A stretch of DNA of 64,000 nt from Bursaphelenchus xylophilus (Eukaryota > Nematoda > Chromadorea > Rhabditida > Aphelenchoididae): contig CAJFCV020000001.1 of assembly GCA_904066235.2 (NCBI GenBank), positions 4,092,001 to 4,156,000 of the forward strand, read 5' to 3'. The notes beneath the pieces are model-generated. The model searched no databases. It was not told where the DNA came from and saw only the letters and a list, made by a program, of their open reading frames with translations. The position numbers and the translations under genes were made by a program. Numbering within the stretch: the first letter of the stretch is position 1; the number at the start of each line of letters is the position of its first letter. Shown piece by piece: positions 4,108-58,243 of this stretch.

Positions 4108-4260
4108 ATTCCGCACAGTGCAGAAAGTATGATAAAAAATTGCACAGTGCAGGAAAAGGTTGAGTTTTCGGCGTAGTGCAAAGATATTGGAAATCGCATC
4201 GTCGCTGTGCGATCAAAGGTAGTTGACAAAAAACAAAAATGATCAACACAGTGCCGATTT
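4108..4260. repeat. GCACNGTGC motif cluster 1 (small)
   Basis: Two exact GCACAGTGC sites and several one-mismatch relatives lie in the gap between the 3' ends of the CCCH gene and the first four-pass membrane gene. This is the smallest of the clusters and is probably decayed. Confidence 0.6.
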
Positions 4261-4319
4261 AAAAAAAAATCACAATTTATCTACAATTCATAACGTCAGT
4301 TGTACAAAAACGAAAGATT

Positions 4320-5267
4320 TTATTTTTGCGTATAACTTTGCCGTTTGCTTTTCCTTTGGTTCCAGTGCCTCGCACAGGCCAGCGAATAGTCATGGAACAT
4401 TTTCCTCAGCGTGAACCACTTGAAAACACACAAAACAAACAAAATCGACTCAAAAGTCCCGACTTGGACCCAAAAATCGTCCGTTCTCACTATAACCCCC
4501 AAATCTGCATAGGGTTCACCATGCGCGACAAGGAGAATGTCCATAAAGAGAAGGCTGACCAGCAAGAAAGTAAGCATAATCAGGGTCATTGATGTGTACA
4601 TGTAGGCAAAAACGTATAAATGAGGTAGTCGAATGCGATTTCCGATGATCAGGATGACATAAAATACGAAACCGGCGAGAAAATAGGCCATGAGAACGTA
4701 GTGGTCGGAGTACAAAAATGCGATGAAAACGGCGATGGCAAGATGAGATAGGCACCAGAAAGTCGAGAGGATCAGGTTTAGGAGCTGAAATTTTAAGTTT
4801 TATATTTCTAGTTGCAAATTATTTTTTTATATTTTTTTGCCTCTGGCCCAGTTCATTTTGGCTTTTTCTGGATGTAAAAAGAATGACGACTTTCTCCGAT
4901 GTCTCCAAAATCCTCAAATAGTATCCAATTCCCTCAAAAATTCGTCATCCTTTTTGCCACCTACCCTTACCGGCGTCGGGATCCATGGATTCCTCTTTTC
5001 CGGATGCTTATAATCACTCTCTCCACTGTCACTGCTCTCCTGATGACGGATCTTTTTCGGGTTGGGCTTCTTGGTCGAGGAGATGCTCGAGGTCTTTGTT
5101 GAGGTCGAGGTGACACTTCCATTGTTATAGCGGGACTTCATGTGCTTGGGCAAGGTGTGATTGAGAGAGGCGGAAAAGGAGGACTCGGCCTGGTCATCAA
5201 TCACGACCACTTCGTCCGGGCCGGACCGGTTCGGCTGGATCGGCGGAGTGGAGTCGGAGACTCGCAT
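4320..5267 (-). CDS. Four-pass membrane protein with Ser-rich N-terminus
   Basis: Two exons: 4971-5267 (99 codons) and 4320-4784, joined in phase 0, 253 residues. The donor is GTAAGG and the acceptor TTTCAG. Residues 1-99 are polar, rich in Ser, Thr, Lys and acidic residues, and probably disordered and cytosolic. Four hydrophobic segments follow at about 100-125, 128-149, 156-185 and 200-222, then a basic tail (NQRKSKRQ). A TTTTCCAG acceptor about 15 bases before the ATG suggests trans-splicing. The layout (four helices, IGN at the end of helix 2) matches the gene at 6630-8963, so the two look like diverged tandem paralogues of a nematode tetraspan family that I cannot name. Function unknown. 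Confidence 0.7.
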
Positions 5268-6629
5268 TAAAACGGGATTTTCTGGAAAATTGGAGTGAAT
5301 ATTGATGTGAAATTTTGTATCAGAGATACAAATTTTAGATAAAGTAAACTGAAATAGAATTCGACATACGACAAATGATAATGTTTGTAAAATACGCCCT
5401 GCATGTAAAAATGCGCAAATTTATGTTTGAAGCGACATATCTTATGCCTTGCGGGTTTGAAAACAAAATCCCTTTGCACTTGCATGTAATAAGCTATAGC
5501 CATGACATACAAAAAAATTCAAGTTACACCGACGATTATTTTTCTAGTTACATCAATTTTTCCGCAAGTCTCTCTTTGCATTCTAATGTTATGGATACGG
5601 TCAAAAAAACCGATTAATAGAGGCAAACTGGCCAAAAAGACAATGCTAAAACGTATAGCACTTGAAACGCACTGCCTTGATAGCCAATTAAACTATAATC
5701 TAATTACGAACCCTAAGGGAAAAAGCCATCGAAACACAAAAAATTCAAAATGTCCCTTCAAAGGCCCAGTTGGATTAGAAAAGATAGAAAATCTGATAAA
5801 AAGCTTTACAAAAACCATTTCCCAAACAAAACAAAAGCGAAAGATCGCTGTTCCAATGTCAAAAAAATCGTTAGAGTCCCGCTGAACAAGGAGCTAAAGT
5901 CGTTGAAGTGAGACAAAATGAACAACGAGCCCCGAAAAGGGTTTGTTTTCGTTTTCATCTCCAAAAAAAGAAGTCCGAGGAGGTCGCTATTGAGAGGGCT
6001 CAATGTCAAAACGTGATTTATTTTATTATTCAACAGAAGGTTGCGCAATTTATCGCACGGTGCAAAATTTGCTTTCATTTGGGACATTTGCATTGTGCGA
6101 CATTGGCGACCAGCTTTTGCGATGCGAAAACTGCGACAATGAATTTTTGCACTGTGCAGGGCAATCGAAATTTTTTTGCACTGTGCGAAAATCATGATTG
6201 ATCTTGCACTGTGCAGACCATGCGAAAACTTTTATGCACTGTGCAATTCTTCTTTTCATTTGGACGTTTGCACTGTGCGACATTGGCGATAAGCTTTTGC
6301 GATGCGAAAACCGCGACAATGAATTTTTGCACTGTGCAGGTCATTCGGCATTTTTTTTGCACCGTGCGAAAATCATGATTGGTCTTGCACTGTGCAGAAA
6401 TGCAAAAACTTTTACGCACAGTGCAATTTTTGCGACAAACTTGATAAATTTTTTTTGTTTCTTATTGTTAAAACCCAAAAAAATTCTATATGGCGTATTT
6501 TAAATTTATTTCACTCATAAAAATCTAATAAAATATTACAAAATAAAATCCATGGCACTGAAATTAAAGCTGAGGTAATTTGAGTTCATATTATTGCCCT
6601 TTCATCCATAAAAAGTAGTAAAAAACCAC
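5268..6629. other. Intergenic DNA with a possible small ORF
   Basis: Spacer between the two four-pass membrane genes. It holds CGTATTTTAC-type motif at 5389 (as GTAAAATACG) and motif cluster 2 (6055-6425). A Lys/Arg-rich ORF of 53 codons at 5750-5911 (plus) is open, but has no family match, no clear splice context, and overlaps an equally long frame, so I do not call it a gene. Confidence 0.4.
6055..6425. repeat. GCACNGTGC motif array 2, in 180-bp tandem units
   Basis: About ten copies of the spaced palindrome GCACNGTGC occur, mostly in the context TTTTGCACTGTGC. The block is built from two units of about 180 bp: the ACATTGGCGA segment recurs at 6099 and 6279 with the same motif spacing, showing local tandem duplication. 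Both strands appear open over long stretches because the motif contains no stop codon in any frame. Confidence 0.8.
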
Positions 6630-8963
6630 TTATACCACCACTCCCATCTCCTCGATCACATACACATTGGTCCTGTCGCAAATCACCTTCTCCGGATACA
6701 ACGTATCATACAATTTTCCGGCCGCAAACATCTCAGCAATGTGCTCCTTGCCATGACTTTCGTAGAGCTCCACAAATCGCTGGATATAATGATAATCGCT
6801 GATCAACAGCATCAATTGCTTGTAGTAGAGATGAGCGACGAGAGCGCAGAGAATTTGGAAGAAAATGTAGGCAACCACAGCGATGTAATTGTCCAAAAGA
6901 TCTTGGATTCCGTTGGAAGAGGTGTTCGAGTATTGGAAGAAAAATAAAACCGAAAGAGCCAATGATGCGAGGACCGTGGCCAGTGTGACGATGAAGAGAA
7001 TCGCCTGGAAATTAATAGAATTGATTTTGAAATCAAAAAAATTTTTAAGTCATCAATTTTGCACAGTGCACTCGGATTGAGGACTTTCTTTCATTGCACT
7101 GTGCAAAAAAAATCTTTTTGCATTACAGATATTAGAAAAATAATGTTAAAAGACTGCCTCAGGGTATTTTAAACTCATTTTTATTTTACTCTTTGCACTG
7201 AGCCACAAAAATATCATTTTTATTTTTTGCACTGTGCAGAAAACAAAAAATGGGATTCTTGCACGGTGCGAGGATGCCCATAGGAAAAAAAATTTAAAAA
7301 AGGTGTACCTCGTATACTAAGCCACAAAGTTGTCTTTCCCACTTTTTTTACGCATTGCGTTTCAAAAAAACCCCATTTTTATTTACTGCACAGTGCGAAA
7401 TTAAAAATCTTGAAATTTTGCACGGTGCGATAAAACAATTTTGTAAAAATCGACACATATAGATGGGATACGTATTTTACATTAATTTTCCTACAGCATA
7501 CGTTATTTACACTCATTTTCAACATATTTTTATTTATTCCTTTCCACTGCACAGTGCAGCAAACTTTTTTCTTAAAATCCGTCGATTGCACTGTGCAAAA
7601 AAAATTTTTAAACTGACAAAATTCAAATTCCTCAAAAAATCACTTAACCCAGAAACCCCTACTTCCTGTAGCCCCCTGTTAACCCGGATCATAAACTGTT
7701 CCAGTTTTTGTTGTAACTTTCCCGTGTACTTCCGGTCATTACTCAAGGGCCGTCGGAAATGGAACGGAAATGGAGAGTTGAGCGGTTTTTTGAAGATGAC
7801 AAACGGCGATGTTACCACACCTTTTCTCATCAACGCCGCTGTTCGATTTTGGTTTAATGAGTTTACAAGGTCATTCTTGCACGGTGCAAAAAATTTTGTC
7901 TGATGTGAATTAAAAATTCTGCGCGAAAATTTTAAATTGATTTTAGTGTAATGTGCAGACCAGAAGGAGGTAAAATTTTTGAACAACAAAATTTAACCTT
8001 CTGTTAGTTAGTCACCGCACAGTGCGATATGAAAAAATGACTGCACGGTGCAAAATTTCCACGTTATTTTAATTTTGCACAGTGCAATGGACAATATATC
8101 ATTTTTCATCGTATCTAAAGAAATTTAGCCCAAAAATAAATGCTTGAACGATTTTCAAACCCTCAACGAATTGCAAGACGCAATTTGCAACCCAAAAATT
8201 CCACTGCACAGTGCATACAAAATAAAAAATCCAAATCCGCACAGTGCAATAAAAAATTTTCAAAAAAGTCAGATTTAAAACGGCGTATTTTACCCATCCA
8301 ACATATATATGTATAATCAACCCACTTACCGAGCAGATAATAGCCGGGATATAGAGCCATTTTTTCATGAACAAATTTCCGATGACAAGCGCCAAAAAGC
8401 TGACAAAAATTAGAAAAGTGCTGATCATTGTGGGAAAAAGCCCGCTTTCTGGGAAGATTTGGGTGTAAATCGTGGTGAAACCCAATGGAAGGATGATTGT
8501 GACCGTGGTGATGACATATGTTAGAGCAATTAGGAAGGTCGCAAACTGAAAAAAAGATGATATTATACTTGATTTTTATGGTGGAAATGAACTTTTGAGC
8601 TGATAAAAAGAGCTAATAGGATAATGTAAGGCTAAAAAAACTTTTTGGCTTATGGAATTTAAATGGAAATTAAAATTATCACCAAAAAATCTTGTTTTAT
8701 GCCAAAAATCATCAAAAAATCGCCGATTTTAGCCTATTAACCGTCTATAACATAACTAAAATACACTGTAAAATAACCACAAAACCTTGAAAACAATATT
8801 CAAACCTTTTTTCATCAAATTAAAAACCACTTCGACCCCAACTTACATGTTTTTTAGCCGTTTGCCAGGCAATTTCCCTCATTTCCACCATTTCCCAAAC
8901 CCCGCATCTTCCGTCGCCGCTAAACGAGGACCCAGTCCCATAACGGGTGTAACCGAAATCCAT
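6630..8963 (-). CDS. Four-pass membrane protein
   Basis: Three exons joined in phase 0: 8847-8963 (39 codons), 8330-8545 (72) and 6630-7004 (124 plus stop), giving 235 residues. Donors are GTAAGT and acceptors end TTTTTCAG and ATTTCCAG. Hydrophobic segments fall at about 40-66, 77-98, 102-135 and 154-175, with a polar C-terminal tail of about 55 residues (YESHGKEH, YPEKVICDRT). The N-terminus is short and polar. It resembles its downstream neighbour at 4320-5267 in helix layout and the IGN turn, so it is probably a paralogue. Intron 2 (1.3 kb) is full of GCACNGTGC motifs, and a TATA-like box lies 40 bases upstream of the ATG. No family or function recognised. Confidence 0.75.
7060..8260. repeat. 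GCACNGTGC motif array 3 (intronic)
   Basis: At least fourteen GCACNGTGC sites (for example near 7061, 7095, 7228, 7388, 7421, 7547, 7587, 7879, 8017, 8042, 8079, 8205 and 8238) spread through intron 2 of the four-pass membrane gene. Spacing is looser than in the intergenic arrays. It shows that the motif is tolerated inside a transcribed unit. Confidence 0.75.
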
Positions 8964-17222: not shown

Positions 17223-17442
17223 ACCAAAAACCTGGTAAAATACGTCATCAAGGGGTTAGTTCCCCTTTGAAATTTTAATAAACTGAATAAAAAATATTTG
17301 ATACAGCCTTGCGTTCAGAGAGGCCATAAATTCGTGTTTTAAAAAATAACGAGGAATTGGAAAATTGTTTGTGAAATACGATACTATGAGATTTCTTTCG
17401 AATATAAAATCAAAATGAATATCTAAAAAAGGTTGAGGTTTT

Positions 17443-17514
17443 CCCAAGACAGGAATCGAACCTGTGTCACTACGTCCACAGCGTGGAGTACGAACCACTA
17501 CTATTTATTTGGGA
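17443..17514 (-). pseudogene. tRNA-His pseudogene
   Basis: Matches the intact tRNA-His copies elsewhere in the window but has substitutions that break the anticodon stem, changes at the acceptor end (GGGAC for GGGCC) and changes in the D arm. The GTG anticodon is still readable. Confidence 0.7.
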
Positions 17515-17676
17515 CGTGACTTTATTTCTTCACTTTCATCACTATTAACCTACTTTAATTTATGAATTCTAATACCTCATTAACTTCTCGAAATGATTTT
17601 GTAATGAACTTCCTGTGGTATTCGTATTCATAAAAAAGAGTAGGCGAATAGTCATCAAGGTGAAGAAACAAAGTCG

Positions 17677-17750
17677 GCCCAACTAAACAGTAGTGGTTAG
17701 TTCTCCACGTTGTGGCCGTGGCGACACAGGTTCGATTCCTGTCTTGGGCA
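17677..17750 (+). pseudogene. tRNA-His(GTG) with altered D arm
   Basis: The anticodon, T arm and 3' acceptor strand equal the intact copies, but the 5' acceptor and D-arm region is changed and lengthened by two bases (AACTAAACAGTAGTGG). This disturbs acceptor pairing. It is followed by a T6 run that would terminate Pol III. Probably inactive or recently decayed. Confidence 0.65.
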
Positions 17751-20140: not shown

Positions 20141-21135
20141 GCACCGTGCGAAACAACATTTTTAGCCTGGTCTCCGCAAACTTCCGCACAGGGCAATTTC
20201 ATTAGGCTTCATTTTTGGGGGTTAAAAAAGGCGAGTGCACAGTGCAAAGTGGAACCAATTTTTGGACCCGCCGTGCGCGCACGTACAGGGTGGTCCAGCT
20301 AAGTTCGCGGATATAAAATGCTGATAACTTTTTATAGGATTGTTCAATTTTTATGAGCAATAGCTCATTTTATTCCTTAGTAGTTGCCATTTTTGGGCCA
20401 ATTTTGCATAGCTGGGATCGCTCTGTTCACCATCATTTCCCGGTACCAGCGAGCGGTGACACCGCAATTCAAAAATTTTTGAAAATTAAATTTTTTTAAA
20501 AATTTACGTGAAAAACCATGTTTGACTTTGAAGGGTCATAACTCGACGTAGGATTGATCATTTTTAATGATCTTTTTTTAAACAAAATGCTAACTACTAA
20601 GGAATAAAATGAGCTATTGCTCATAAAAATTGAACAATCCTATAAAAAGTTATAAGCATTTTACATCCGCGAACTTAGCTGGACCACCCTGTAGTTTTCC
20701 CGCAAAAATGTTATGCACAGTGCAAATGGTCTTTGCGAAAAAAGCAGAGAGGATTGAAAATGAGTCTGCACTGTGCGCATTTGTGAGAAAGAAGGTTTCC
20801 CGCCAAAATTTTTTAGCCGTACGCACGGTGCAGTAAGCAAACGTCTTTCCGAACGCACGGTGCGACAAGTTTGTTCTTTTGCACAGTGCAAAGTAGGGCG
20901 GAATTGAGACTGCACTGTGCGTTTTTGCGAGCACGACGATTTCCCGCCAAAATTTTTAGCCGAGTGCACAGTGCAGTAAATTTTTTTCCGAACGCACAGT
21001 GCGACAAAATTTTTTTTTTTTTGATTTTGGACAGTGCAATTTTTCTGCATTTTCAATTGCACTTTGCGCCGACAAAGTTACTTATGATTGCACTGTGCGG
21101 TTCATATTTCTATTTCAACTGCACTGTGCGAATGA
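20141..21135. repeat. GCACNGTGC motif array 4
   Basis: About a dozen GCACNGTGC sites flank a 406-bp inverted-repeat element at 20286-20691. The array parts share the context CGCCAAAATTTTTAGCCG beside motif copies (about 20805 and 20945), so internal duplication is visible. The insertion of the element between array parts shows that this array predates it. Confidence 0.75.
20286..20691. mobile_element. Tc1/mariner-type MITE, CAGGGTGGTCCA ends
   Basis: Terminal inverted repeats of over 100 bp begin CAGGGTGGTCCAGCTAAG and are flanked by TA on both sides, the Tc1/mariner target duplication. Length is 406 bp with no transposase frame. It interrupts a GCACNGTGC array. Confidence 0.85.
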
Positions 21136-22847
21136 TTAAATTACGGGATTTCCTGGCGTGAGCTTTTTCCAAGAACGAGATGGAGTTGAAAAAAGTTAAA
21201 ATTATGTAAATTACTTACTTAGAGAGCTGGAAATTCTAACACAGGAATTTTTTAACCACTTTCCTTCCAAATTGTGCCCGAAATTTAATTATTTTTTTTT
21301 GTAAAATACGATGCATTTGCTTTTGATTTATTTAGCAAACAAAATAAAAAATTATTTACTACCTAAGATACGACATTCTCACATGATGACGGCAATTTTC
21401 GTTTAAATTCTAGTCTAATTCTTCAGTTGTTTCCAATGTATTCAAGTGGCTTGCGTCAAGTCACAAGTCCATTCAAAACTGGCAAAACAAGTTTTTTCCG
21501 TGTTCTATCGACCAAGTTTTGTTTACAAGTTGAACTTTCACATATTACCATGACTTTTTTCCAGTGTTTACAATTAGTTGCCTTTTGTGTCCTTTTAAAA
21601 CCCGTAAATAAATTGCCTCGGGCGATGGGAGGAACATGCCCGAGGATCTTTTTTGGGACTCGCTAATTGCCCCGGAACACTGTAAATTTTAAATTGGACT
21701 GCATAACAAGGTGGAGAGGAGGAACGGATTCCTGTTTTTGGATGGGAATGATACAAGATTTGGAGCTTTTTTTGGATAAGTGTAATAATTGGGGGGAAAT
21801 ATTCGATTTTCAAAATAAAAGTTTAAAAAGAAATTTTTTTAATTGGCTTTTATTTTTTTGTAAAATACGTTTTGCATGGGGCGAAAGCCCCGAAAATTAA
21901 AGGATGATTAAAACATACGTGATATTTTGCCGTTAAAGCGTATAAAATGGAAGAAAAAGGATTCAATCCAAAATTTGTTGACGCTAATTAATTTTTTTTC
22001 CGTAGAATACGTAAAAACTTCACAGAAGCCCAAAAAAAGACGTTTGTAAAAAGAAAAAACAATAAAATGTTTAACCAAATCGGTTGTAAAATACGAAGCC
22101 AGACGGGGTTAAACCCCCTAAACTGATTATATAGATGGATTAAAAAAGTGCGCTTTTTGCATAAGATCTGGGCGGAAAAAATGACGTAAAATAAAAGGTA
22201 AAATCAATAAAAAATTTGATTATTTTGGTAAAATACGAGGCCAATGGGGTTAAAACCCCAATGCTTTTATTGTTTTTTAAAAATATTACAGCGAAGTGCT
22301 GAAATCAATTGCAGTACAAAAAAATTTATGGACAAAACTTCAACGAATGACTTACCAAAATTCGCAAAAAGAAAGCACATTTTTCAACTTTCGGTCTAAC
22401 GGCATCGACCACATTTCAATAAGCAAAACGCGGAGGGCGGTCAGAGAGAAAAACACTTCATGGCCATGGGTTTTCCTGTTTCGCTCTGAAAAAGAACGAT
22501 TTTTACGGTAAAAATGGGCATGGAACTTTTCATGCTAAATAGCAAAGTGTCCTTCAATTGCTAACTCAGCTTTAAGATTATTAATTTACTTTCTAGTCTT
22601 TAAAATTAAAAAAAAGATTTTACTTTTTTTCGTTTCCTTGAACTTGAAACTTATTAATTTCGAGGCTGAAAAGGACAAATTTAATTATCTTTTTTGGAGG
22701 AAACGAACGGATTTGAAAGATATTCTGGTTATGCGCTGGACGCTATTCGGAGTATTCAACAAAAGGAATACTCTGGGCAACAAATTATTAAAAAAAAAAT
22801 TTTTTGGCATGGCTGTGCGGTGCCAAAAGGGGGAGGGCACAGCTATA
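21136..22847. other. Intergenic DNA with three hairpin-plus-10-mer modules
   Basis: Three close copies of a composite motif occur: GTAAAATACG followed by a GGGG-loop-CCCC hairpin at about 21858-21894, 22081-22122 and 22229-22262. A fourth 10-mer is at 21300. Palindromic GCCTCGGGC-type motifs lie near 21617 and 21645. No gene is recognised. Confidence 0.55.
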
Positions 22848-23708
22848 CAGGGTGTCCAGAGAAATGTGCCGGAAAGTTTTTGTCGATTTCTTGGCGCTCA
22901 ATAAAGATATCCGAAAAATTCTTTTTGCAGGATAAAGAAGAATTTGGGCGGTTTTTTGTCCGAAAGAATCATTTTTTCCGCCAGCGCGGAAGGCAGTGTA
23001 TTCGGCGGAGACTTTTGATCGCTTTTTTGGCCATCACACCAATTTTAAACGCATTATTATGATGCTGAAACTTCCGGAAAGTCTTCAAATTTTTGACGCA
23101 ATAAATCACACAGACAGCGACATCGCAATGCGATCCCATATAGCGACTGCACGGTGCAGCCTGTCGCTGCAACACCGATAAAGTCCGGGTGCACCGTGCT
23201 GAGGTTTGAAACAGCAAGGCAAAAGGAAATTTGAACAAAAAATTTTTTGTTGTTTTCTGGTGCACCAAGTGGTTTTCCGATGGCTTAGCTTCTGCCAAAG
23301 CTTGGTGACAAAATTTTCGAAGGCATACGAAGCCAGCAGGGTGTTCTAGCCAGGCCATAAAAATTGTGTTGGACCATGTCTTGTCCGCAGCTGAGTTATG
23401 GCCTCCGCCGATTCGGCGAGCGTCCGCCATACCTTCGCCGAACACTTGGTAAACATGAAAATATGCAAATATCTTTGTTTCAACCATCAAAGTTCATAAT
23501 AAAGCGTTTAAAGTTGGTGTGATGATCAAAAAAGCTATCAAAAGTCTCCGCCGAATACACTGCCTTCCGCGCTGGCGGAGAAAATGATTCTTTTGCACAA
23601 AAAACCGCCCATATTCTTCTTTATCCTGCAAAAAGAATCTTTCGGATATCTTGATTGAGCGCCAAGAAATCGACAAAAACTTTCCGGCACATTTCTCTGG
23701 ACACCCTG
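22848..23708. mobile_element. Tc1/mariner-type element, CAGGGTGTCCAG ends
   Basis: Inverted repeats of about 210 bp begin CAGGGTGTCCAGAGAAATG and are flanked by TA. Total length 861 bp. The interior (about 23060-23500) is not repeated and includes a 173-codon minus-strand ORF without a recognisable DDE transposase motif, so the element is non-autonomous or a remnant. Two GCAC(C/G)GTGC sites lie in the interior. Confidence 0.85.
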
Positions 23709-23746
23709 TATTGTAGCAATACGAAAATGAAAAAAAAATTGGCGGT

Positions 23747-28832: not shown

Positions 28833-29600
28833 TTCGCACTGTGCAGAGCTTCTTTATTTTTCGCACTGTGCGTTTTCGAATTTTTGCAGTTTTTGTCGCC
28901 AGTTTTTCTTCTTTGCGACAAATTCTTTTGCACCGTGCGACATCACATTTTTTGCACTGTGCACCAATTGTTTCAATTCTGTTGCACCGTGCAAATCCCA
29001 AATCTTTGGTCATTCAATTCTGTTGCACCGTGCAAATCCCAAATCTTCTTCCTCATTCTTTTGCACTGTGAAAAGTTCATTTATTACTTTTTTGCACTGT
29101 GCGTTTTCCAATTTTTTGTGACCGCACAGTGCAAAGAAAAAATTTCGTTGCACAGTGCGGAAATTTTTGTCGCTAGTTTTTTCTTCTTTGCGACAATTTT
29201 TTTGCACCGTGCGAACACATTTTTGCACTGTGCGGCCTTGCTCTATCTTCTGTACTGTGCATCAGCTGTTTCAAGGAGCTTTCAAGTTTGTCGCACCGTG
29301 CGAATCCCGAATCCTCTTCCTCATTTTTTGCACTGTGCGTTTTCCAATTCTTTTTGACCGCACAGTGCAAAGAGAAACTTCCGTTGCACAGTGCGGAAAT
29401 TTTTGTCGTCAGTTTTTTCTTCTTTGCGACAAATTTTTTGCACCGTGCGACATCACATTTTTTTGCACTGTGCATCCCCTCTCAATCTTCCGCACAGTGC
29501 ACAAAATTTGTCGCTTTTGCACTGTGCATGAACTGTTTCAATTTTGTTGCACCGTGCAAATCAATCCCGAATCTTCTTCCTCATTTTTTGCACTGTGCAT
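28833..29600. repeat. GCACNGTGC motif array 5 (densest)
   Basis: More than twenty GCACNGTGC sites in about 770 bp, with centres A, T, C and G all present. It contains tandem units of about 235 bp: the block from GCACTGTGCGTTTTCCAA through GACCGCACAGTGCAAAGA to TCTTCTTTGCGACAA occurs at about 29096 and 29329. Long open frames on both strands come from the stop-free motif and are not genes. Confidence 0.85.
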
Positions 29601-32514
29601 CCAATCCCCAAGGCCAAATATTCAATTAGAGCCCACATACGTGCAGAAACAAGGACATTACGTACGAAAATTTCGGGGTTCTGGTATATCCCCGGGGGGT
29701 TTTTGTTAATTTATGAAACAAATTGAACCACCAGTTCTTTGAAACTTGTTTTCGATGGGGAACATGACAAATTCGAGCGGATGCTCGAGATTTTTCTGAG
29801 TTTACAGGGCGGAAAGTCTTGAAAATTGGTCAAGTGGATGTTCAGCACGTCATTTTGAAAAATATTTTTTAACTTTTCAAAAAAAATGTTTTTGAATTTT
29901 TGCTAAAAATTTTGTTTTTAAAATACGATGCAAACATTTACTGGCTTCTTATGATATTTTCAAGGTAAGAAAAGCAAATTTTTTGACTTTTTAAATTTAG
30001 GGGACCCAATTATTTCCTTTTTTTCGTGTAATTTTTGCCTTATTTAGATTTCCCACGATTTATTACTCATTCTTATAAGGCTCGTTTCAGAGAACTTGAC
30101 ATTTAGACGCTTGTACTTACATTTTAAACTCATTGTTTTTAGTTTTTTTTTCAGAAATTACAAATTTTGTTCATTTTGTTAGTTTTGGGTTCAAAATTGA
30201 TTTTATCGCGAATTTACAGGGTTTTATGCCAAAATATGTCTGTTTATATCAATTTTACAGTGTTTTAGGAAGTTTGATATATTTTTTTGAAATAGTAATT
30301 GGCTCAAAAATTTTTCGAAAAATTCCAAAATCGCAAAAAAATTTTTTTTTCATTTTTATTTTTTATTTTTTTCGTTTTTAAAAAAAATTTCCCGTAATTC
30401 TGCTCTCGGTCTCCCCGCCAACCCTGAAGCGATGATTTTAACAAATTTTTATAAGCAAAACGGCAAATAAATGGGGGATCACAAAGCAGAGGGAGCGTGT
30501 GCTTTCTAGTGACTGTAAAACAAATAATTCCAAGTTCCGAAAATTCATATAAGCTTAGACGATATTTTTCTGAACTTTTAGCAGTCCGTTCGCGAAGTCA
30601 CTGGAGTTATTTCGGCGAAAACAAAAGTTCTCTTTGCACTGTGCAATTTCTTGCTTTTGGCATAGTGCACTAGGTTTTTTTATTTTTCGGGTTGTCCCTC
30701 TCAGCTTGACTTTTTTTCTCAGTTAGCGTCGCCGAAATCACTCCAGTGACTTTGCGAACGGCCTAGTAAAACATTTCAGCCGGTTGAAACGGAATGCCAA
30801 AATTGGCGGGAAATTTTTAAATTTAAAATTTGAGCAAGGCATTGGGTAGAATATGCGTTACTGAGGCTAGCCCTTTATGAAAATCAGATAAAATGAAATT
30901 TTTTGAAGCTGAATATCCTAAAATACGAGGTTCATTTTTAGCGGGAAATTTGAAATTCAAATTTTTTTTTTGTATTATTGTATCAAAAATATGCAATGCA
31001 CAGTGAATACAGACTCCGTGCTCTTGCCAAATCGTATTTTACCATTTCTCGAAAAATTAATTTTTGGCGGGAAAATCCAAATTCAAATTTTCAAATCAAA
31101 ATTTTCCCGCCAAAAATCAAAACGATTCCGAACCCTTGATCTCAACGCTCTACCATATGTTTTGACTCCTCAATCTTCGATTTCCAGCCCCATCAACCTC
31201 TTGAACTCTTGATTTCCCCTCAATCTCGCACATCTTATATTATCCATGGCCCCGGATTGGGGTGTCTGCAAAAAAAAACGCTGGGTTTTTTTTCAAATTT
31301 GATATTTACAAAACGAAATGAGAGGAGTCGGCGGATATTTCTGTGCAAAGTGAGGGATTGTTTGCGCGGCCTTTCTCTCTCAATAACCAATATTAAATAA
31401 ATAAATGGCAAAGGTCCTTAAAGACTGCAGGGAAAAAAGGTAGTCAAGGTTGTTGCGTCAGGGGTTAAAATGAAAGGTTTGGGTGTGAAAATGACTGGGA
31501 TTTCCATTTTAGGACTAAACATAAAAAATAATTGGAGAAAAATCGTAAAAATCAGAAAATTTGATATTATTTGATGTTACACTAGGCAGAAAATATGGGC
31601 CAATTGAGCTATATGGAATTTTAAAAAAAGCTTAAGGTCCTAAAAAAGGCTCTAGACACTGTTTGGATTCTGATTTAACATTTTAATTTTCCTAAAATAC
31701 GGATTTTTTTGGGTCTAAAATGTACATATTACACTAGGTAAAAAAGAATCGCCAAAAGCAAAAGAACGAGTTTGACTGTTAAAGTTTCCTTGTAAATGCT
31801 TGACGAAGACGTTAAATTTCTTATTATGATATTTCTGATTCTACGACATATTTATTTTTAAAAAATTTTTATATTGCTTTAGATGAGATGGTTGGCTAAT
31901 TTATTAAATATTATTACTATTTTTATTGTTTTTTGCGTATTTTAAAGAAGTATATAGATTACAGAGGCCTCTAAAATGCCTGAGGGCCTTTCTTTCATAC
32001 TTTTCTTTGCTAAAATACGGATTTTTTTTGAAATTTTGGCACATGTTAAGTGTATATCAAAAAAAATCGCAAAAAATGACTTCAGTCACCAAAATTGGGA
32101 GACTTGCAAAAAATTACAAACATGCTTCCAGTGCTGGGACGTATTTTACAATTTCATTTCCTAAACTACAGTCTGAAATCTCATTTTCAGCTAAAAAATT
32201 TCCAAAAAATTTCAAAATTAGCCATTGTTTCCTCCATTTGGAATACTGCCCTTTGTCCGTATCGGACTCCTTTCCGATGTTCTCGTCGATTTCCGAACGG
32301 CTATGCCTCGCCGAAACCCGTCAAATGCCTCGAAAATTCGCGGAAAAAAGGCAAAAGGACGGCTGATCAAACAGTGGTCTCGAAACGGAGACTTTTCGCT
32401 TATTTTTAATTTTTTTGACAATTTGATACTCCAAATTATCCTTTAGGGCTTTCATTCCAAGCATTTCGGGAGAGGGAAATCGATAATTTTGAGGGATCTC
32501 CAAGGGTTGATTTA
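29601..32514. other. Intergenic DNA, no gene seen
   Basis: AT-rich sequence with 10-mers near 31025 and 32139 and CTAAAATACGGATTTTTTT at both 31690 and 32010. TTACACTAGG occurs at about 31577 and 31730, probably from local duplication. Two GCAC-type sites lie near 30635-30668. A GC-richer block at 32230-32400 has open frames on both strands but no recognised product. Confidence 0.45.
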
Positions 32515-33315
32515 TTGCACAGTGCAAGAAAGAAAAATATTCGACTGCACGGTGCGAGAAAAGAATTTTTGACCGCACGGTGCAGGAAAAGAATATTCGA
32601 CCGCACGGTGCGAGAACAATGTTTCGGTTGCACTGTGCGAAAACTAAAAAAAAGTTTCTCGCAATAAATTGCCAATTCACCGTGCGGCCATAAGACAACT
32701 TTCCGCACGGTGCAACAAAATTTTAAAAATTGCACTATGCTGTTTTTCATCGATTGTTTTTTTAGTTTGCACAGTGCAAGAAAACATTTTTCGACCGCAC
32801 GGTGCGAGAACAATGTTTCGGTTTAACAGTGCCAAACCAATCGCGATAAAATTTGCCGCAACAAAATGCCAATGCACCGTGCGGCCATAAGACAACTTTC
32901 CGCACGGTGCAACAAAATTTTAAAAATTGCACTGTGCCGTTTTTTACCGATTGTTTTTTGAGTTTGCACAGTGCATTTTGTTTCGTCTCACAGAAATACA
33001 CCGCACGGTGCAAATGCGACATTTTGTTTATTGCACTGTGCAGTTGATCGTTCTCCATTCCGCACCGTGCAAAGCTCGCGACAACAATTGTTTTGCGCAC
33101 TGTGCAAATAAAAAAAAGGCTTGTCGCACAGTGCAGTTCTCATGTCGCTTGAAAAAATGGGTTGTGCACACAGAGATTGTTTTTTTTTTGCGCACAGTGC
33201 GTTTCGCACAGTGCAAAATCCGCGACCGTTGTTTCGCACAGTGCAACCGGACATCCTTTCCTTCCGCACAGTGCAATCCACTTTTCCCTGCCAAATTTCT
33301 TTGCACTGTGCAGAG
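32515..33315. repeat. GCACNGTGC motif array 6
   Basis: About twenty-five sites in 800 bp. A unit of about 188 bp is duplicated: the segment GGCCATAAGACAACTTTCCG occurs at about 32692 and 32882 with the flanking motifs in register. Centre bases vary between copies of the unit, while the GCAC and GTGC half-sites are mostly kept. Confidence 0.85.
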
Positions 33316-37930: not shown

Positions 37931-38783
37931 AGCTCTTTTTCTTACATGACGTAGGGAATTTGGCGGAAATTTGAATAAAATTAGGGGAAATTGTGATTGC
38001 ACTGTGCAAAATAATTTTTTGAGGGTTGTGCACTGTGCAGTCCAAAAATTTCTTTGTTTGCACTGTGCAATCGTTTTTGGAAACAAAATTTTTGGTGCAC
38101 TGTGCGAACTCTGAAGATTTAAGCTTTCTGCACAGTGCAAGCGGCAATAAGAATTTTTGGCACAGTGCAAAAAACACGTTTATGATTTCGCACAGTGCAG
38201 TGGAATTTTTGGTTTTTTCGGGTTGCACGGTGCGAAGACGAAAAATGTTCACACAGAAGGTGGTGCACAGTGCGATAGGAAGTTCTTTGCACCATGCGGA
38301 ACAGTTTTTGACCTCGCCGCACTGTGCAGGAAAAGTAAAATCTTTGGGACAGTGCAACAAGTTTTTCTTTGATTCCAAAAACGGTTGCACGGTGCAATCA
38401 AAAAATTATTTTTCTGCACAGTGCAAGCGGCGACAAAAAGTCTTCCGAACAGTGCAAAAAATTTTTTTTTATTATTTCGCACAGTGCAGCGAAATCTTGG
38501 GTAATTGCACGGTGCAAAGAAGAAAAATTTTCGCGCAGAAATTGTTGCACAGTGCGATAAAAAGCAATTTTTTCTCTGTTTGCAAAATTTATCATCGCTG
38601 ACTGACCGCACAGTGCAGGAAAAATAAATTTTGGAGGTCGCACAGTGCAGCGAAGAAGTTTCGTTTCCAAAAAAACTGCACGGTGCAAGAAAATCATTCT
38701 TTTTCTGCACAGTGCAATCGCAATTTTCCCGTCATTTTATTCAAATTTCCTTCAAATTCAATTACGTCATGTAACAAAGAGCT
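37931..38783. repeat. GCACNGTGC motif array 7, bounded by inverted repeats
   Basis: About twenty motif sites lie between inverted flanks of about 65 bp: AGCTCTTTTTCTTACATGAC on the left and its counterpart TCATGTAACAAAGAGCT on the right, followed inward by TTTGAATAAAAT and its complement. Inside, a unit of about 285 bp is duplicated (GCACAGTGCAAGCGGC at about 38131 and 38416). The array therefore looks like the inside of a foldback unit. Confidence 0.8.
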
Positions 38784-45000: not shown

Positions 45001-47910
45001 CAATGGTCGACATCCTGGCCGAGATGGACCAGTACGTGGACAACGAGTTCTACCCGCTGTATGTGAGGGTCGGGATGACGTTCATCTTCGCGTTGTTGGC
45101 GGTCATGGGGATTGTGGGCAATATTATGGTGATCACGGTGGTGCTGAAGGTACCGGGAATGGTGAGTGAAAAGTGAAAATTTTAATCACAAGAAAGAGGA
45201 AACGTATTTTCCAATTCAAAATTTTTTATCCTACGTTGATATTTTGGCGAAAAAATTTGAAAAATTTGTTAAATATGGCCTTTCTACAGGAGAATTCGAT
45301 TACTTTACTATAATATTTTTGATTTTAAAAAAGCACAAATTTTTTGTAGTATCATGGATAGGTGTGGGTGCCATTTTAAGAACCCCAACAAACCCCTGAA
45401 GATTTCAACTCGCCCTTTTTGGCGGCCGACAAAATATTAGTCGTTCCAGAAAGTGCATAGACTATTCGTCGAGTGCCTCACCGTGCAAAAGACTCATTTT
45501 TGCGGCGTGAATTTTACTTTCTGCACCGTGGAAGTGCAATATCGCAGCGGCGCAAGCTTTTCTCAACGGAGTCGGCGCGAATTTTGAGCTGACAAAAAGA
45601 AATTGCACAATGCAAAATGTTTCGAAAAGAATCGCAACATGCAGTGTCTGGTGCAAAAAAAGACCGAAAAAAGTCTACGCACTTTCTGAAACGACTAGTA
45701 TCAGTCTGTCGGGAAAATAATGAACGCTCTGTCGCTGCGCCGATGGCGTCGTTGAAGTGAGAAGAAATTTGATTTTGCCGTGAAACAATTTTTTTTCGCA
45801 GCGGAGAGCGATTTTCGATGCGACACGGTGCTCATTATTTTCCCGACAGACTGATATTCTAAGTTCTAGAGAGAATTCTAAATGAGGAGAACCGGGCGAA
45901 AAAGCGTCTAAAAAAAGTTTCTAAAAAATTTAGAAAATTTTTTATGCTTTTCGGCTTCTGACTGGTAAAAACATATTTTTTAGTAGCAATTCTATAGCAA
46001 TAAAAATTAGTCATGATTTTTTTTTAATTTCCTTACAACATCCAACCAAAAAAAATCGGAATTCTCTGGAAAAAACACGGGCTATTAATCTCGAAAATGC
46101 CTTATAAAACCACATTATAGCTATTGTCGTATTTTACCCCCAACCTTCCCAACTTTTCAGATCACCCCCACCAACTGCTACCTCACTTCTCTGGCGGCCT
46201 CCGATTGTTTATTTTTCATCGCTTCATTGCCGCAGGAGCTGAATAATCTTCATGGGACCTCGAAACAGTACATCTTCGGATCGATGGGCTGTTCCCTCCT
46301 CTCCTATCTTCCGTATCTTGCCATCAACACCTCCTCGCTCTCCATTACGGCCTTTACGATCGAGAGATTCATCGGGATCTGTCATCCCTTGAAGGCGCGC
46401 TACATTTGCACCGTCTCGCGGGCCAAGCTGATCATTGCGTTGATCTGGATTTTTGGCATCACCTACAACAGCCCATGGCTCTATTTGGCCACTGTTATGA
46501 CCGACTCGGAAGGAGATTACTGTAGTTTCAAGTTGGAGAGATCAAACTGGACCTACAAGCTGATCTATGTCATCGATTTCTTGAGCTGTTATCTGGTCCC
46601 GATGATTTTATATTTGATGATTTATGCGAAAATCACGTACACGTTGATGAAATGCACTGTGAATTCGAACCAACAGCAACAGAATAGCCATAAAATGCGT
46701 GAGTCTTTGGATTTTATTGGCAAATCTTGAGTGAGAGGTCTAGTTTTATTGGCAAATCTTGAGTGAGAGGTCTAGTACAATATAAATTAATGTCCCAAAA
46801 TCATATTTACTGAGACAGGTTGTACGTAAAAACGGAAAATTTTGTTTTTAAAATATAAATCAGCCTTTCGTAAGAAATAAAACTGATAAAAATTACATGT
46901 TTCAAAAGATGTTGGGTCCCGCAACGAAAACCTCAACTTGAATTTTTCGGGGAATTCATCGCGAAAATCGGTGGTTAAGAGTCCTGAAGGTTATGTTTTT
47001 CCATTTTTGACCTTTTTTACGCTTATAAATAAAAAAATTTTGGGTCCCACCACGAAAACCTCAAGTTGAATTTTTCGGAGAATTCATCGTTAAAATCGAT
47101 GATTAAGAGTTCTCAAGGTTCTATTTTTGCATTTTTGACCTTTTCCTGGCCCAAAATAAAAATTTTTGGGTCCCACCACGAAAACATCATTTTCTCTAAA
47201 ACTCAATTTCCCCTCAAAATCTTCCTTCCTACGACTAATTCAAGTGTTTTCAGCGATCCATCCAGACTCCCTGTCGCAGAACGGCACTGAAAGATCGCAT
47301 TCCATCACGTTCTCACCTCCAGCTTTGAAGACAAAACAAAGCAATTCAATTCAAATGGACAAGAACTCCTCGATGAAATTGACGCTCACCATGAGCAATA
47401 CGACCACAATATCGACAAAACGGCAGACGCCGCGCAGTCGGATGCAGGTTCAAGTCATCAAAATGTTGGCTTTTGTGGTCATCATCTTCGCGGTTTGCTG
47501 GCTGCCCTACCGGGCGATGGTCATGTACAACTCGTTCGTGGATGAGACTCAGATGTTCACCAAAGCATGGTATGTCACTATAACTAACTAGAACATTAAA
47601 ACTAGTATTCTGATTTTCAAAAAATAATTTTTTCCCTTCCAGGTACCTTTTCTTCGCCAAAACCCTCATTTTCTTCAACTGTGCTATCAACCCGATCCTC
47701 TACAATGTCATGTCGGCCCGTTTCCGCAACGCCTTCAAACGGTGTTTCTGTGGCGCCGAGGAGAAGCCCAAAAGTACAGTGAAAAAGTGCACTTCCGTCT
47801 CCAAATACCCGCTCAGATCGGACGATCAGAAGCCGTTTTTGCCCGGCAATTATCATCGCGACTCTATTTATTCGTCAGGAAAACACGAGACTCTTCACGA
47901 AGTTGTATGA
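42009..47910 (+). CDS. Thyrotropin-releasing-hormone-receptor-like GPCR
   Basis: Exons 42009-42211, 44891-45161, 46161-46698, 47254-47569 and 47643-47910, 531 residues, frames continuous. A class A peptide receptor, G-protein coupled at the plasma membrane, closest by eye to metazoan TRH receptors (C. elegans trhr-1 type): TPTNCYLTSLAASD (D2.50 at 173), ICHPLKARYICTVSRAK, CWLPYRAMVMYNSF (419-432) and NPILYN (459). Asn 145 is N1.50; Cys 202 and Cys 279 can form the conserved disulfide; NFT at 103 is a glycosylation site before helix 1. The DRY motif is ERF (226-228). The third loop is long, Ser/Thr-rich. A second in-frame ATG at 44949 (residue 88) gives a more usual N-terminus, so exon 1 is less sure. 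Intron 1 (2.7 kb) hosts several mobile elements. AATAAA at 48282-48287. Confidence 0.92.
42970..43450. repeat. Dispersed direct repeat R, copy 1
   Basis: Shares blocks with 60998-61380 in the same orientation: AGGCTAGAGGAAGGCTTA, TTGGTTTTTGGAGCAAGTTT, CAAAAAACTGAGGTT, and GCCAAGC...CGTCATTTTCATCCAA-type text, ending near TCGACCCGAAAA. It has no inverted termini and may be a SINE-like or solo sequence. It lies in GPCR intron 1. Confidence 0.65.
43822..44043. mobile_element. 222-bp MITE, GCACGGCAACCC ends, copy 1
   Basis: Ends are GCACGGCAACCC and GGGTTGCCGTGC, with inner inverted similarity (GAATTCAAACGAAATGTCAAA and its counterpart). Flanking GAC on both sides is a 3-bp target duplication. 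The copy at 54999-55220 has the same length. Confidence 0.8.
44050..44437. mobile_element. CAGGGGAAGTACC inverted-repeat element
   Basis: Ends CAGGGGAAGTACCCC and GGGGTACTTCCCTTG. The interior contains the block TCGTTGAATATCTCGGCGGC followed by AAACTTTCAGGAATT, which recurs at about 57285 and 62610. It lies directly beside the 222-bp MITE in the same intron. Non-coding. Confidence 0.7.
45478..45660. repeat. Degenerate GCACNGTGC cluster 8 with inverted flanks
   Basis: Several one-mismatch sites (CACCGTGCA, GCACCGTGGA, GCACAATGCA) lie between the inverted flanks TCGTTCCAGAAAGTGCATAG (45439) and CGCACTTTCTGAAACGAC (45678). The unit of about 260 bp sits in GPCR intron 2. It supports the view that such clusters live in foldback units. 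Confidence 0.55.
45711..45854. mobile_element. TCAGTCTGTCGGG MITE, copy 1
   Basis: Ends TCAGTCTGTCGGGAAAATAA and the complement, flanked by TA on both sides; 144 bp. It is in GPCR intron 2. The other copies are at 54333, 54820, 61515 and 63722. Confidence 0.85.
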
Positions 47911-53822: not shown

Positions 53823-53894
53823 TGCCCAAGACAGGAATCGAACCTGTGTCGCCACGGCCACAACGTGGAGTACTAACCACTATACTACTTGGGC
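53823..53894 (-). tRNA. tRNA-His (GTG)
   Basis: Intact 72-nt gene, same sequence as the other copies. A T6 run follows on the transcribed strand. It forms a divergent pair with 54059-54130. Confidence 0.95.
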
Positions 53895-54058
53895 CGATGA
53901 CTCTGTTTCTTCACTTTGATGACTTTTCAACGTCTCTCTTTGAATCCAGAACACCTCAGGAATTTAATTATAAAATCATTGCGAGAAATTAATGAGGTAT
54001 TCGTATTCATAAAGAAGAGTAGTTTAATAGTCATCAAAGTGAAGAAACAGAGTCATCG

Positions 54059-54130
54059 GCCCAAGTAGTATAGTGGTTAGTACTCCACGTTGTGGCCGTG
54101 GCGACACAGGTTCGATTCCTGTCTTGGGCA
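54059..54130 (+). tRNA. tRNA-His (GTG)
   Basis: Intact 72-nt gene with a T6 terminator 12 bases downstream. The 164-bp spacer to its divergent partner is an inverted repeat like those of the other pairs. Downstream sequence to about 54275 resembles the outer arm at 37040-37134 (TTATAACTTTACTGAAT). Confidence 0.95.
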
Positions 54131-55547: not shown

Positions 55548-56250
55548 TATAAGCTTGCTTGAAATTTCACTCACAAAAATCTCCTCCGGCAACAACTATA
55601 AGCTTCTAAAATCAGTACTAAAGCAGATTATGATGTCATCAAAACCTCGCAAATTTGTTGTCGACCACCTGAGTGAGTGTCACACGAACACTGCCCTTAA
55701 TTTCCCTTCATTAGCCGTGTTTATATGCGAGTAAAACAAGGTGTAAGTGGCGGTTTCCCCGGGAGACTATGGGAATCCGCAGGCGGTGTGGGAGGGAGAA
55801 GTGGCTGACAAGTAAATGTAATGGGTAACAACATGACATGGTTAGGAAAAATAAAAATATTTATGTAAGACAATACAATGAAGTGGAGTAAGGAACTGGA
55901 GTTTCATAAAACTTACAATTAGTGGTATAATAACATAATTTTCTTCATGTAAAGGTTAGTTCTGCCATTATTGAAAGTTTTTAGTTTCTTCCTTGCAGTT
56001 ATTAGAAATGAGTTATTCAGATACCGTCGCACACAAGAGACTATGGAAGATGATAGGGCCTATACTGAAGGTGACCGAGAAAACTCTTGCAATTTTAAGT
56101 GATCAGAAAGTTTTGTCCACCAATTTTTGGAAAACTTGCATAACTCGCCTAAGGACAGAGATACAAAAAACATTTTTACGTGGTAGATTCTGCTTGTCAT
56201 CACTAACACACACGCCAAGTTTCAAAGTGATTGCGTTATATTCACTTGAC
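55548..56250. other. Intergenic DNA, no gene seen
   Basis: A 97-codon ORF (from 55993) runs into the mobile element at 56251 and is not supported as a gene. Nothing else is recognised. Confidence 0.4.
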
Positions 56251-56842
56251 AAGGAAAGTACTTTTATGGGGGCTCCTACTTTTTGACGGGACATATCTCA
56301 AAAAATCAGAAAAAATGTGCTGATCAAGGATATATAGATCTTAGCTGCCCATTTTAGGTTTTTAGGGGTGAAAACTCAATCGGAAGTTGGCTTAAAGTCC
56401 TATATGAACCCCTTTTCGCTTAATTTTTCACAGGTTTACAATTTTTATTTTGGCTTAAAATGATGTTTATTGAGTTTCTAAGACGTAATAAGACAGTCTT
56501 GGCCCAAAAATTTATTTTTCCGACCTTCAACTTCAAAAAAAGTTGATTCGGCCCAAAAGGGAAATCGAACCCGTGCGGCATCCCCCCTCTTGATTCCCAG
56601 ACTACGGCACTAACCACTCGGCCACACCGCTCTCTTCCGAAGGAAGAGACCGAGTGCGCTTTTTATCGTTTCGAATGCCTGCGCCTTTTGTAGGGAAATT
56701 AAGCCAGTTTTTGGGCATTTTCACCCCTAAAAACCTAAAATGGGCAGCTAAGATTTATATATCCTTGATCAGCGCATTTTTTCTGATTTTTTGAGATATG
56801 TCCCGTCAAAAAGTAGGAGCCCCCATAAAAGTACTTTCCTTG
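56251..56842. mobile_element. CAAGGAAAGTACTT element with tRNA-like core, copy 1
   Basis: 592 bp, ends CAAGGAAAGTACTTTTATGG and its complement, arms of about 140 bp, flanked by TGA on both sides (3-bp target duplication). The interior carries a minus-strand tRNA-like sequence (56549-56630). Non-coding. Confidence 0.85.
56549..56630 (-). pseudogene. tRNA-Ser-like sequence inside a mobile element
   Basis: The minus strand begins GCGGTGTGGCCGAGTGGTTA, the D-arm form typical of type II (Ser/Leu) tRNAs, and ends with B-box-like GGGTTCGATTTCC. The length of 82 nt suits a long variable arm. The acceptor pairing is poor, the T-loop has an extra base and the anticodon loop (CTGGGAA) would read GGG, so it is not a working tRNA-Ser. 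It is repeated at 58543-58624. Confidence 0.7.
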
Positions 56843-57284
56843 TGAGATATGGGTGGTCAGAAATTTATGTCCGGGAATATACAATTCCTTTTGCGTAAAT
56901 CTTGTAGCTTTCGCTTCGAATTGAAAAAAGTGCCTAACACCGCTGTAAGACATTTTTTGGAACATAGGTGAAAGTGTAAAGGAATATGCACATGTGCTGT
57001 GACAAACACCTGTTGATATACTTACATATTACATATTTACTTTTTAGGAACCAAAAAGTTTTTTTATCATCTCTATTCAGTTAAAGGACAATACATGCAT
57101 ATACTGTACAAAAGTAGAAAATGTATCTTTTACAAGTGTTTATAAACCCATTGTAGACAACATCTAAAAAATTTCGAGAATTGCAGAGTTCAACACGCGG
57201 TTGGCATAAGATCTACGCAAGTGTATCACAATACACTTGATGAGCAGACAAAAATACTTGGTAAAATGCGGCAGAGGCTACGAT

Positions 57285-57524: not shown

Positions 57525-57740
57525 CGCACCGTGCAACCCTCAAAAAAGCCGATTGCACTGTGCACGTTTTTGAGCAAAACCGCAGCGGCGCAAAATTTAC
57601 GTCGCAGCGATATTTCAACTGCACAGTGCACCAAAAATAGTGCACGGGGCAAAAAATCGGGGATTTTTGCACAATGCGGACCGCGACAAACGTGCATTCC
57701 TTTTATGAAAATGCTAATATTTCGATGCACAGTGCAAAAT
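57525..57740. repeat. GCACNGTGC motif cluster 9
   Basis: Five sites (for example near 57527, 57555, 57621 and 57726) plus variants; another lies near 58058. It borders the C-run tract at 57775. Confidence 0.7.
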
Positions 57741-57774
57741 CAAAAAAAATGTGGGGGCTAAGGTAAATAGTACA

Positions 57775-57945
57775 GCCCCCCAGTCCAGTTTAGCCCCCCA
57801 TGACCCAGTACAACCCCCCTCGTCCATTCTGAACCCCAAAATTTATTTCAAAAAATTAATCCAAGTTGTATGGTCCAGCACAAGCCCCCTACATTTTAGG
57901 TCAAGCCCCCAACGTAGTAGATCAAACCCCCACTTACATTTCTTG
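57775..57945. repeat. Array of C5-C6 runs
   Basis: At least six runs of five or six C occur at about 57775, 57794, 57815, 57886, 57907 and 57929, in an AT-rich setting, several in the form AGCCCCCC or AACCCCCC. The minus strand has G5-G6 runs. Runs of G lie outside at 57752 and 57992 on the plus strand. No gene. Confidence 0.6.
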
Positions 57946-58243
57946 TATTATTCTAATTTGTTCATTATGTGGGGTGTGAAACGGGCAAAACAGTGGGGGT
58001 TTGAACTACCGAAGCCCCAAAATGTGAAATGCGCGGTGTAAAATGGGATTGTTTGGTGCACGGTGCGGTTTTATCAAAATGTCTATGCACTTTATAAAAA
58101 ACAAATATTATTGTAAATGTTTTAGTATTATCCATCGTATTTTACACATTTGACTTTCTTAAAACTTTCCAATAAGTTTCTTTCCAGTTGTTTATTTATA
58201 TGTAAGCAATGTTTATTTATCCCTCAAAAATAGATCAATTTCA

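Follow-up and report, generated by a model that had tools for sequence, protein, structure and literature searches.

The stretch analysed here, called the window throughout, is C1:4092001-4156000 (64 kb) of the pinewood nematode Bursaphelenchus xylophilus, placed in suborder Tylenchina, and it contains dense arrays of a short spaced palindrome, GCACNGTGC (Table 1). The genome comprises 78.25 Mb in 8 contigs: six large ones of 12.1-15.1 Mb each, C7 of about 15 kb by difference, and C8 of 14.6 kb. Exact copies of GCACNGTGC number 109 in the window, where 100 dinucleotide-preserving shuffles gave 0.20 as the expectation and 1 as the maximum. The centre base is A in 40 sites, T in 36, G in 20 and C in 13. 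A sequence-only reading of the window had announced clusters of about 100 copies with all four centre bases, and the clusters are real. Most of its listed intervals were recovered; 45478-45660 holds degenerate copies only and no exact one, 4108-4260 holds just two exact copies, and the list had missed those at 23149, 23191, 24776, 30636 and 58058. Over the whole genome, GCACNGTGC is found 41,616 times against 178 for a reversed-pattern control (about 230-fold), and three successive sites separated by 10-40 bp occur 17,471 times against 0 for the reversed control. This genome-wide map is built on complete counts together with partial lists of places.

Table 1. Motif arrays, motif-bearing elements and tRNA-His places in the window
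Feature	Position	Strand	Basis or remark
Small cluster, two GCACAGTGC sites	4113..4150		Exact-motif scan
10-site array with a tandemly duplicated unit of ~182 bp (87% identity)	6055..6424
14 sites in two sub-arrays, within intron ~7007-8330	7061..8247		Splice sites and frames by eye
12 sites, broken by nested inverted-repeat element 20284-20693 (110-bp arms, 96%)	20141..21129
218-bp inverted-repeat arms (95%) flanking two sites, 23149 and 23191	22845..23711
21-site array	28836..29598		Partial genome matches to other arrays only
Old MITE1 copy, 43-bp inverted ends; 1/3 consensus sites still intact	30576..30771	+
22-site array with ~194-bp internal duplication	32517..33311
Terminal-inverted-repeat element, 19 sites	37931..38783
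MITE3-type element, ends TAGTCGTTYCAGAAAGTGCRTAGAC, degenerate sites only	45426..45712
4 sites; one further single site at 58058	57526..57735
tRNA-His(GTG) places	17441-17750, 23747-24051, 36680-36985, 53823-54130, 59669-59740		Surroundings 77-90% similar

The palindrome has a strict 1-bp spacer in the window, since inner spacers of 0, 2, 3, 4, 5, 6 and 7 bp gave 0, 1, 0, 0, 0, 0 and 1 matches, respectively. Its flanks, first described as tending to T/A, are more specific than that: a pyrimidine (Y) precedes the motif at 108/109 window sites and a purine (R) follows it at 107/109. The flanked form that the same reading had singled out, TTTGCACNGTGCAAA, occurs a single time in the window. We extended the flank count to 18 arrays, each of four or more sites separated by no more than 150 bp, taken from the window and from retrieved loci, leaving out the overlapping or tandem loci L002-L005, L007, L008, L029 and L030. 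Of their 229 sites, 226 are preceded by Y and 227 followed by R; thus the fuller motif is YGCACNGTGCR, with a free centre base. Sites in these arrays are spaced 24-37 bp apart in 138 of 211 cases. The arrays are dispersed, partly intronic and about 0.3-0.9 kb long, with approximately one site per 30 bp. Two further words are enriched in array spacers, GCGACAA (23.7-fold, in 6/14 arrays) and TGCGACA (21-fold, in 5/14). Periodic An/Tn clusters (PATCs) have a period of about 10 bp. TTTT autocorrelation of 14 arrays showed no peak at 10 bp, its main peak being at about 27 bp, which is the site spacing, with a small bump at about 7. PATC-like periodicity is thus not seen in these arrays.

Further information about the motif was obtained by comparing duplicated copies of it. 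Internal tandem duplications within one locus supply paired sites and spacers; 12 arrays had usable duplications, giving 14 alignments in which we counted sites perfect in either copy. Half-sites differed at 37/1084 positions and spacers at 404/2611 (Fisher p 1e-29). This roughly five-fold lower divergence of the half-sites argues for selection on the motif, and the earlier remark that half-sites are kept while spacers change holds strongly once measured. Flank bases differed at 45/267 positions, and 37 of those 45 changes were transitions, which keep Y and R. With the count restricted to sites that are perfect in the first copy, the figures were 14/954 for half-sites, 436/2794 for spacers and 38/120 for the centre base. 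Of the 121 sites counted in this way, the partner copy retained 105 unchanged, whereas the spacer rate predicts 31, or 63 if one branch alone decays (p 1e-15). Moreover, one-mismatch and perfect sites stand at 24:229 in the 18 arrays, whereas decay at half the spacer divergence would give about 0.67:1, or about 154 one-mismatch sites. The centre base changes faster than the spacers (42/136 between duplicate copies, p 1e-5). Given that 28 of these 42 changes are transitions, and that spacer CpG positions are often changed as well (70/288), we do not claim any special process making the centre base hypermutable.

Copying of the site is also apparent, because the motif is carried by miniature inverted-repeat transposable elements (MITEs). 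MITE1 is an element of about 194 bp with ends CTAGTCCGTTCG... and about 40 bp of inverted repeat at each end (CTAGTCCGTTCGTAAAGTCGC...); eight copies were aligned, the best 40 of 823 candidates having been scored in a first look, and the consensus has three sites. TA lies to the right of all eight aligned copies and to the left of all seven rows that reach the left end. MITE1 contains GCGACA, as the array spacers do. MITE2 (CTAGGCGGGCCAAAAAGTCTTGACATG...) has 97 perfect ends in the genome; among copies with both ends perfect, 33/35 measure 247-258 bp. Each of three standard-length copies retrieved has four sites, and TA was present on both sides in 6/6 copies checked. Both families are therefore MITEs by the usual description, being short and multi-copy with terminal inverted repeats (TIRs) and TA flanks. 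From the TA flanks and the appearance of their ends, they may be Tc1/mariner-like. MITE3-type ends (TTTCAKAAAGTGCGTAGAC, a likeness seen by eye) bound 45426-45712 as well as an 18-site array, L044, and in L026 a foldback element carries six sites enclosed by long inverted repeats.

Several MITEs lie end to end. At L045 and L049 they meet in CTAGTACTAG junctions (CTAG-TA-CTAG), and at L048 a MITE2 is followed by a MITE1 with a shorter junction; small clusters are therefore formed at once by such insertions, and MITE1 and MITE2 may favour each other's ends as targets. Another MITE2 copy, at L046 ~130-1040, is split by an insertion with GTACTATATAGTA repeats. We considered whether MITE2 copies longer than the standard were growing arrays, and both cases turned out to be insertions of other DNA.

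The passage from MITE to array can be followed at two loci. L042 is a MITE1 copy (84% to the consensus over 162 bp) in which an internal unit of about 132-148 bp is present four times, with 16 sites in all. At L028:60-740, MITE2-like ends enclose repeated 117-bp units with ten sites. In both, a short motif has accumulated by tandem duplication within the noncoding DNA of a transposon; further arrays are duplicated too, and probably arose in the same manner. Inverted-repeat ends are found in 6 of 24 testable array rows, some of them overlapping, two more rows having too little flank; L042 is assigned to MITE1 through its similarity to that element. Most large arrays examined have lost, or never had, transposon ends. 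Since 33 of the 35 paired MITE2 copies fall between 247 and 258 bp, arrays do not seem to be the usual mobile form.

A single transposon behind all arrays is unsupported, as several TIR families carry the motif and the flanks of the two arrays searched against the genome were unmatched. In the first of these, 96 bp taken at the left end of 37931-38783 found no genomic match besides itself and the right end of the same array. For 28836-29598, no full-length copy was found among the 40 of 41 candidates that were scored, and its flanks had no match among the matches listed; the other matches listed, of about 25-235 bp and 68-93% identity, lie in other arrays and are spread over all six of the large contigs. 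When 32517-33311 was included in a longer query, nothing was obtained for that array among the best 40 of 882 candidates.

Four of the arrays examined are located in introns, according to splice sites recognised by eye. L042 lies behind the splice donor of an acid-sphingomyelinase-like gene, whose exon matches residues 97-147 of 9k2e (donor side only). About 2.6 kb beyond it, a 19-site array (L039) fills the intron between exons matching residues 232-311 of 9k2e. As these exons match the same protein at such a short distance, L042 and L039 are probably in one gene. The array at L028:9147-9653 is likewise intronic, and so is 7061-8247 in the window (splice sites and frames by eye for both); the latter is hosted by a gene on the minus strand with exons near 6630-7006 and 8331-8575.

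Old single MITE copies behave differently from arrays. In six MITE1 copies of less than 90% identity (L042 and matches under 90 bp were left out), half-sites departed from the consensus at 17/131 positions and other bases at 149/845 (p 0.21), and 8/17 sites were intact against 3.9 expected. Sites in old single MITE1 copies thus decay nearly like their surroundings, whereas array sites are almost all intact at similar spacer divergence. It is mainly on account of this contrast, drawn from a small number of copies, that we would locate the constraint in the clusters, after insertion.

Arrays are also unevenly distributed along the chromosomes. The complete list for a rare three-site pattern has 60 places on all six large contigs; merged within 5 kb they give 52 loci, of which the left, middle and right thirds hold 21, 2 and 29, so that 50/52 are in outer thirds (p 4e-7 against an even spread). 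A second rare pattern, with 100 of 109 matches listed, gave 59 loci: 15 left, 1 middle and 43 right. Both outer thirds are occupied on 5/6 chromosomes with the first pattern, and on C2 too when the second is added. Along C1, sampled every 0.8 Mb in 20 stretches of 10 kb, we counted 54 sites, of which 4 lay in the seven stretches starting in the middle third. The clustering on one arm of each chromosome that the sequence-only reading had predicted for a pairing-centre role is not what these maps show. Its refuting outcome, an even spread with flanks traceable to one transposon and no protein binding, agrees only in part with the observations: several MITE families are involved rather than one, and the flanks of the two searched arrays found no partner. 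Middle-third loci number 8/37 for MITE1 and 6/62 for MITE2, against 2/52 for arrays; an arm bias exceeding that of the MITEs themselves is therefore suggestive with respect to MITE1, which is somewhat less arm-biased (p 0.015), and unsupported with respect to MITE2 (p 0.29). Repeats in C. elegans are likewise enriched on both arms (PMC9071541; here and below, papers are cited from the portions of their text available to us).

Two further motif-bearing repeats were observed in these maps. A dispersed recurring site pair, e.g. GCACCGTGCACAAAAATCCCCGATTTTTTGCACCGTGC, is found at G000:C2:7842927, 8562801, 8859640 and other places (100 of 342 matches listed), some nearer chromosome centres, and is perhaps another motif-bearing family. 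Near the left end of C1, L001-L005 (C1:97.8-109.5 kb) consist of tandem units of about 2.36 kb with 2-3 motif sites each.

On balance, we lean towards the proposal that GCACNGTGC arrays are MITE-seeded, locally amplified clusters of putative dimer sites selected in place, the chain being taken as far as constraint in place. The motif is very probably a protein binding site, judging from its sequence properties: YGCACNGTGCR would be read by a sequence-specific protein as two 4-bp half-sites in a symmetric dimer, since the symmetry is exact, the 1-bp spacer fixed and the centre base free. Several small non-autonomous TA-flanked DNA transposons with similar CTAG... ends would have spread this site in three to four copies each. 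Such carriage was observed in two families, and seeding of the arrays by MITEs is probable. In rare copies, internal units would have been tandemly duplicated after insertion into arrays of 10-28 sites. Tandem amplification was seen in one MITE1 copy and one MITE2 copy. Transposon ends and spacers would then decay while clustered half-sites are held by selection in place, which is a likely cause of the observed rate difference. The earlier suggestion that a dimer-binding site is under selection or has been copied would then be correct on both counts, given that MITEs carry the site and that half-sites are about five-fold less divergent. Chromosome arms are heterochromatin-rich in C. elegans, and we assume the same for B. 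xylophilus. We hypothesize, tentatively, that cooperative occupancy of the clusters by the protein would alter the chromatin around them on the arms, for instance by counteracting the silencing of a transposon or a host intron; this is the weakest step of the mechanism. Symmetric sites with fixed spacing and a free centre, together with cluster-dependent retention, lead us to expect a dimeric protein acting in a density-dependent manner. We know of no protein that binds the motif.

Several points weigh against this proposal. No motif-binding protein was found, and the genome was not searched for HIM-8/ZIM or VANC. Mariner elements were considered as the source of the motif and rejected, because the three loci inspected, out of 88 PF01359 matches listed for mariner transposase, were without motif or CTAG ends. 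The MITE origin of the remaining arrays is extrapolated from the six of 24 rows that show ends, and genome-wide uniqueness was searched for two arrays (37931-38783 and 28836-29598), scoring best candidates only. The choice of arrays with four or more perfect sites is biased towards retained sites, and sites lost in both copies are not visible; the one-mismatch ratio is the check least affected and partly answers this bias. The contrast with single MITEs comes from six copies, in which subfamily differences may inflate divergence, and weak constraint may exist in single MITE1 copies too, considering that 8/17 sites are intact against 3.9 expected. Finally, the arm bias of arrays does not clearly exceed that of the MITEs.

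The arrays could instead be purely selfish. The motif would be an inner site for the transposase or an anti-silencing protein of one DNA-transposon group, the arrays would be fossils of extinct small families, and the conservation would date from the mobile phase. That the site is common to several TIR families with similar ends agrees with this, and in Arabidopsis VANDAL21/VANC21 is a proven case of a transposon-encoded protein with tandem arrays of a short motif (PMC5735166). However, standard-length MITE2 copies prevail (33/35), the three inspected having four sites, so mobility seems independent of arrays. Furthermore, the two arrays searched genome-wide have no sister copies, and sites in the six old single MITE1 copies decay near background while array sites do not, which makes a purely selfish origin somewhat unlikely. 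Mutation or recombination alone is a very improbable explanation. Slippage or unequal exchange would then break the DNA preferentially at the motif, new units would always be joined there, and intact motifs would be over-represented without selection. Tandem duplications are indeed frequent within arrays, and Mestrovic et al. described conserved boxes at the monomer junctions of Meloidogyne satellites (PMC3694981). Yet the repeated units hold several motifs, so most motifs lie off the unit ends and are conserved too in the alignments. Degraded sites, moreover, are duplicated as readily as intact ones, so the five-fold lower divergence would be left unexplained.

It is tempting to go further and propose a genome-wide host landmark made from transposon-delivered palindromes, in which thousands of GCACNGTGC arrays along the arms of the six chromosomes would be covered by one dimeric protein that contributes to organising these arms. 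We regard this as unlikely. It would operate via homolog pairing, envelope anchoring or arm-heterochromatin control, with selection on cluster density, so that single sites decay and clustered sites persist. As a platform for host pairing, nuclear-envelope anchoring or a (holo)centromere-related function, comparable to HIM-8/ZIM or to the CenH3-associated 19-bp boxes of Meloidogyne, it is quite improbable. With the two samples combined, each large chromosome does carry arrays in both of its outer thirds. Bursaphelenchus and Meloidogyne are both clade IV nematodes. A conserved short box occurs in otherwise unrelated Meloidogyne satellites (PMC9673304), and every clade IV nematode sequenced is reported to have lost Dmc1, Mnd1 and Hop2 (PMC8455136), which leaves room for such a role in homolog pairing. 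However, a pairing centre is situated close to one chromosome end, and several motifs are in use, whereas here one motif is found on both arms. For the same reasons the analogy with pairing centres put forward in the sequence-only reading is weak and unsupported, one motif serving all chromosomes of an animal that is not Caenorhabditis; HIM-8/ZIM homologs are reported in many clade V genomes (PMC8455136). A holocentromere should span chromosome centres, where arrays are scarce; the spread along the whole chromosome expected of a holocentromeric box repeat is not seen (2/52 loci in middle thirds). The four intronic arrays also speak against a landmark.

The arrays of B. xylophilus were compared with known systems. 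By analogy, VANC21 is to our knowledge the nearest proven case. Its YAGTATTAY arrays in VANDAL21 are similar in being a dense 9-bp motif in the noncoding DNA of a DNA transposon, multiplied by tandem duplication, and protein localisation follows motif density rather than single sites (PMC5735166). They differ in that the motif is rare outside one family, has one orientation and is bound by a transposon-encoded protein (PMC5735166), whereas ours is palindromic, occurs in several TIR families and in arrays without visible transposon ends, and is bound by no protein known to us. The satellites of Meloidogyne with CENP-B-box-like or 19-bp boxes also come from a plant-parasitic nematode and keep a short box across divergent tandem repeats (PMC9673304, PMC3694981). 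There, as described, the box is part of a longer monomer, whereas our arrays are short, dispersed, partly intronic and scarce in chromosome centres. In C. elegans, the m1/m2 motifs of CERP2/CELE2 MITEs, bound by HIM-17, are common to different MITE families and selectively kept where co-opted (PMC9757741). These differ, in a comparison with GCACNGTGC by description only, in that m1m2 pairs lie in inverted repeats and are used as promoters, and the available text mentions no arrays. HIM-8/ZIM motifs in C. elegans are short and enriched in chromosome regions (PMC9071541, PMC8455136), and differ from our arrays, which use one motif on both arms. No compared system, as described in these texts, has the full combination, and we do not assign the arrays to any of them.

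The motif appears to offer a very clear binding-site signature in a non-model animal genome, combining its excess over the reversed control with constraint at the level of sites. Transposon, amplified copy and constrained cluster are stages visible within one genome, and the system provides a clean test of whether clustering alone converts a transposon motif into host-maintained DNA. If arrays did form a platform on the arms, this would bear on homolog pairing in clade IV, reported to be without Dmc1/Mnd1/Hop2 (PMC8455136).

A literature text search with exact motif strings did not find GCACNGTGC itself, and no paper was about the motif by its title; one of the other searched strings is present once in a C. 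elegans preprint (PMC12248090). No word starting with 'motif' or 'palindrom' occurs in the available portion of Kikuchi et al. 2011 (PMC3164644). Scans with Pfam (nine open reading frames of the window) and Rfam (the window) gave just ordinary genes and tRNAs.

Other repeats were observed in the window. tRNA-His(GTG) genes form head-to-head pairs about 235 bp apart at four places, plus one single copy, and look like a dispersed palindromic element carrying tRNA-His; Rfam lists all of these copies except the 17.4-kb pair. At 14976-17219, perfect inverted arms of 246 bp enclose tandem repeats of about 162 bp in both orientations. Another short element with inverted repeats has GTCGGGAAAATAATGA close to its ends and is present at 45699-45852, 61513-61665 and 63720-63878, and also at L038 ~765-910, where the copy lies about 40 bp from a 20-site array. 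Finally, a pair of 598-bp repeats at 56246-56843 and 58240-58837 is 97% identical and has inverted ends of 126-137 bp.

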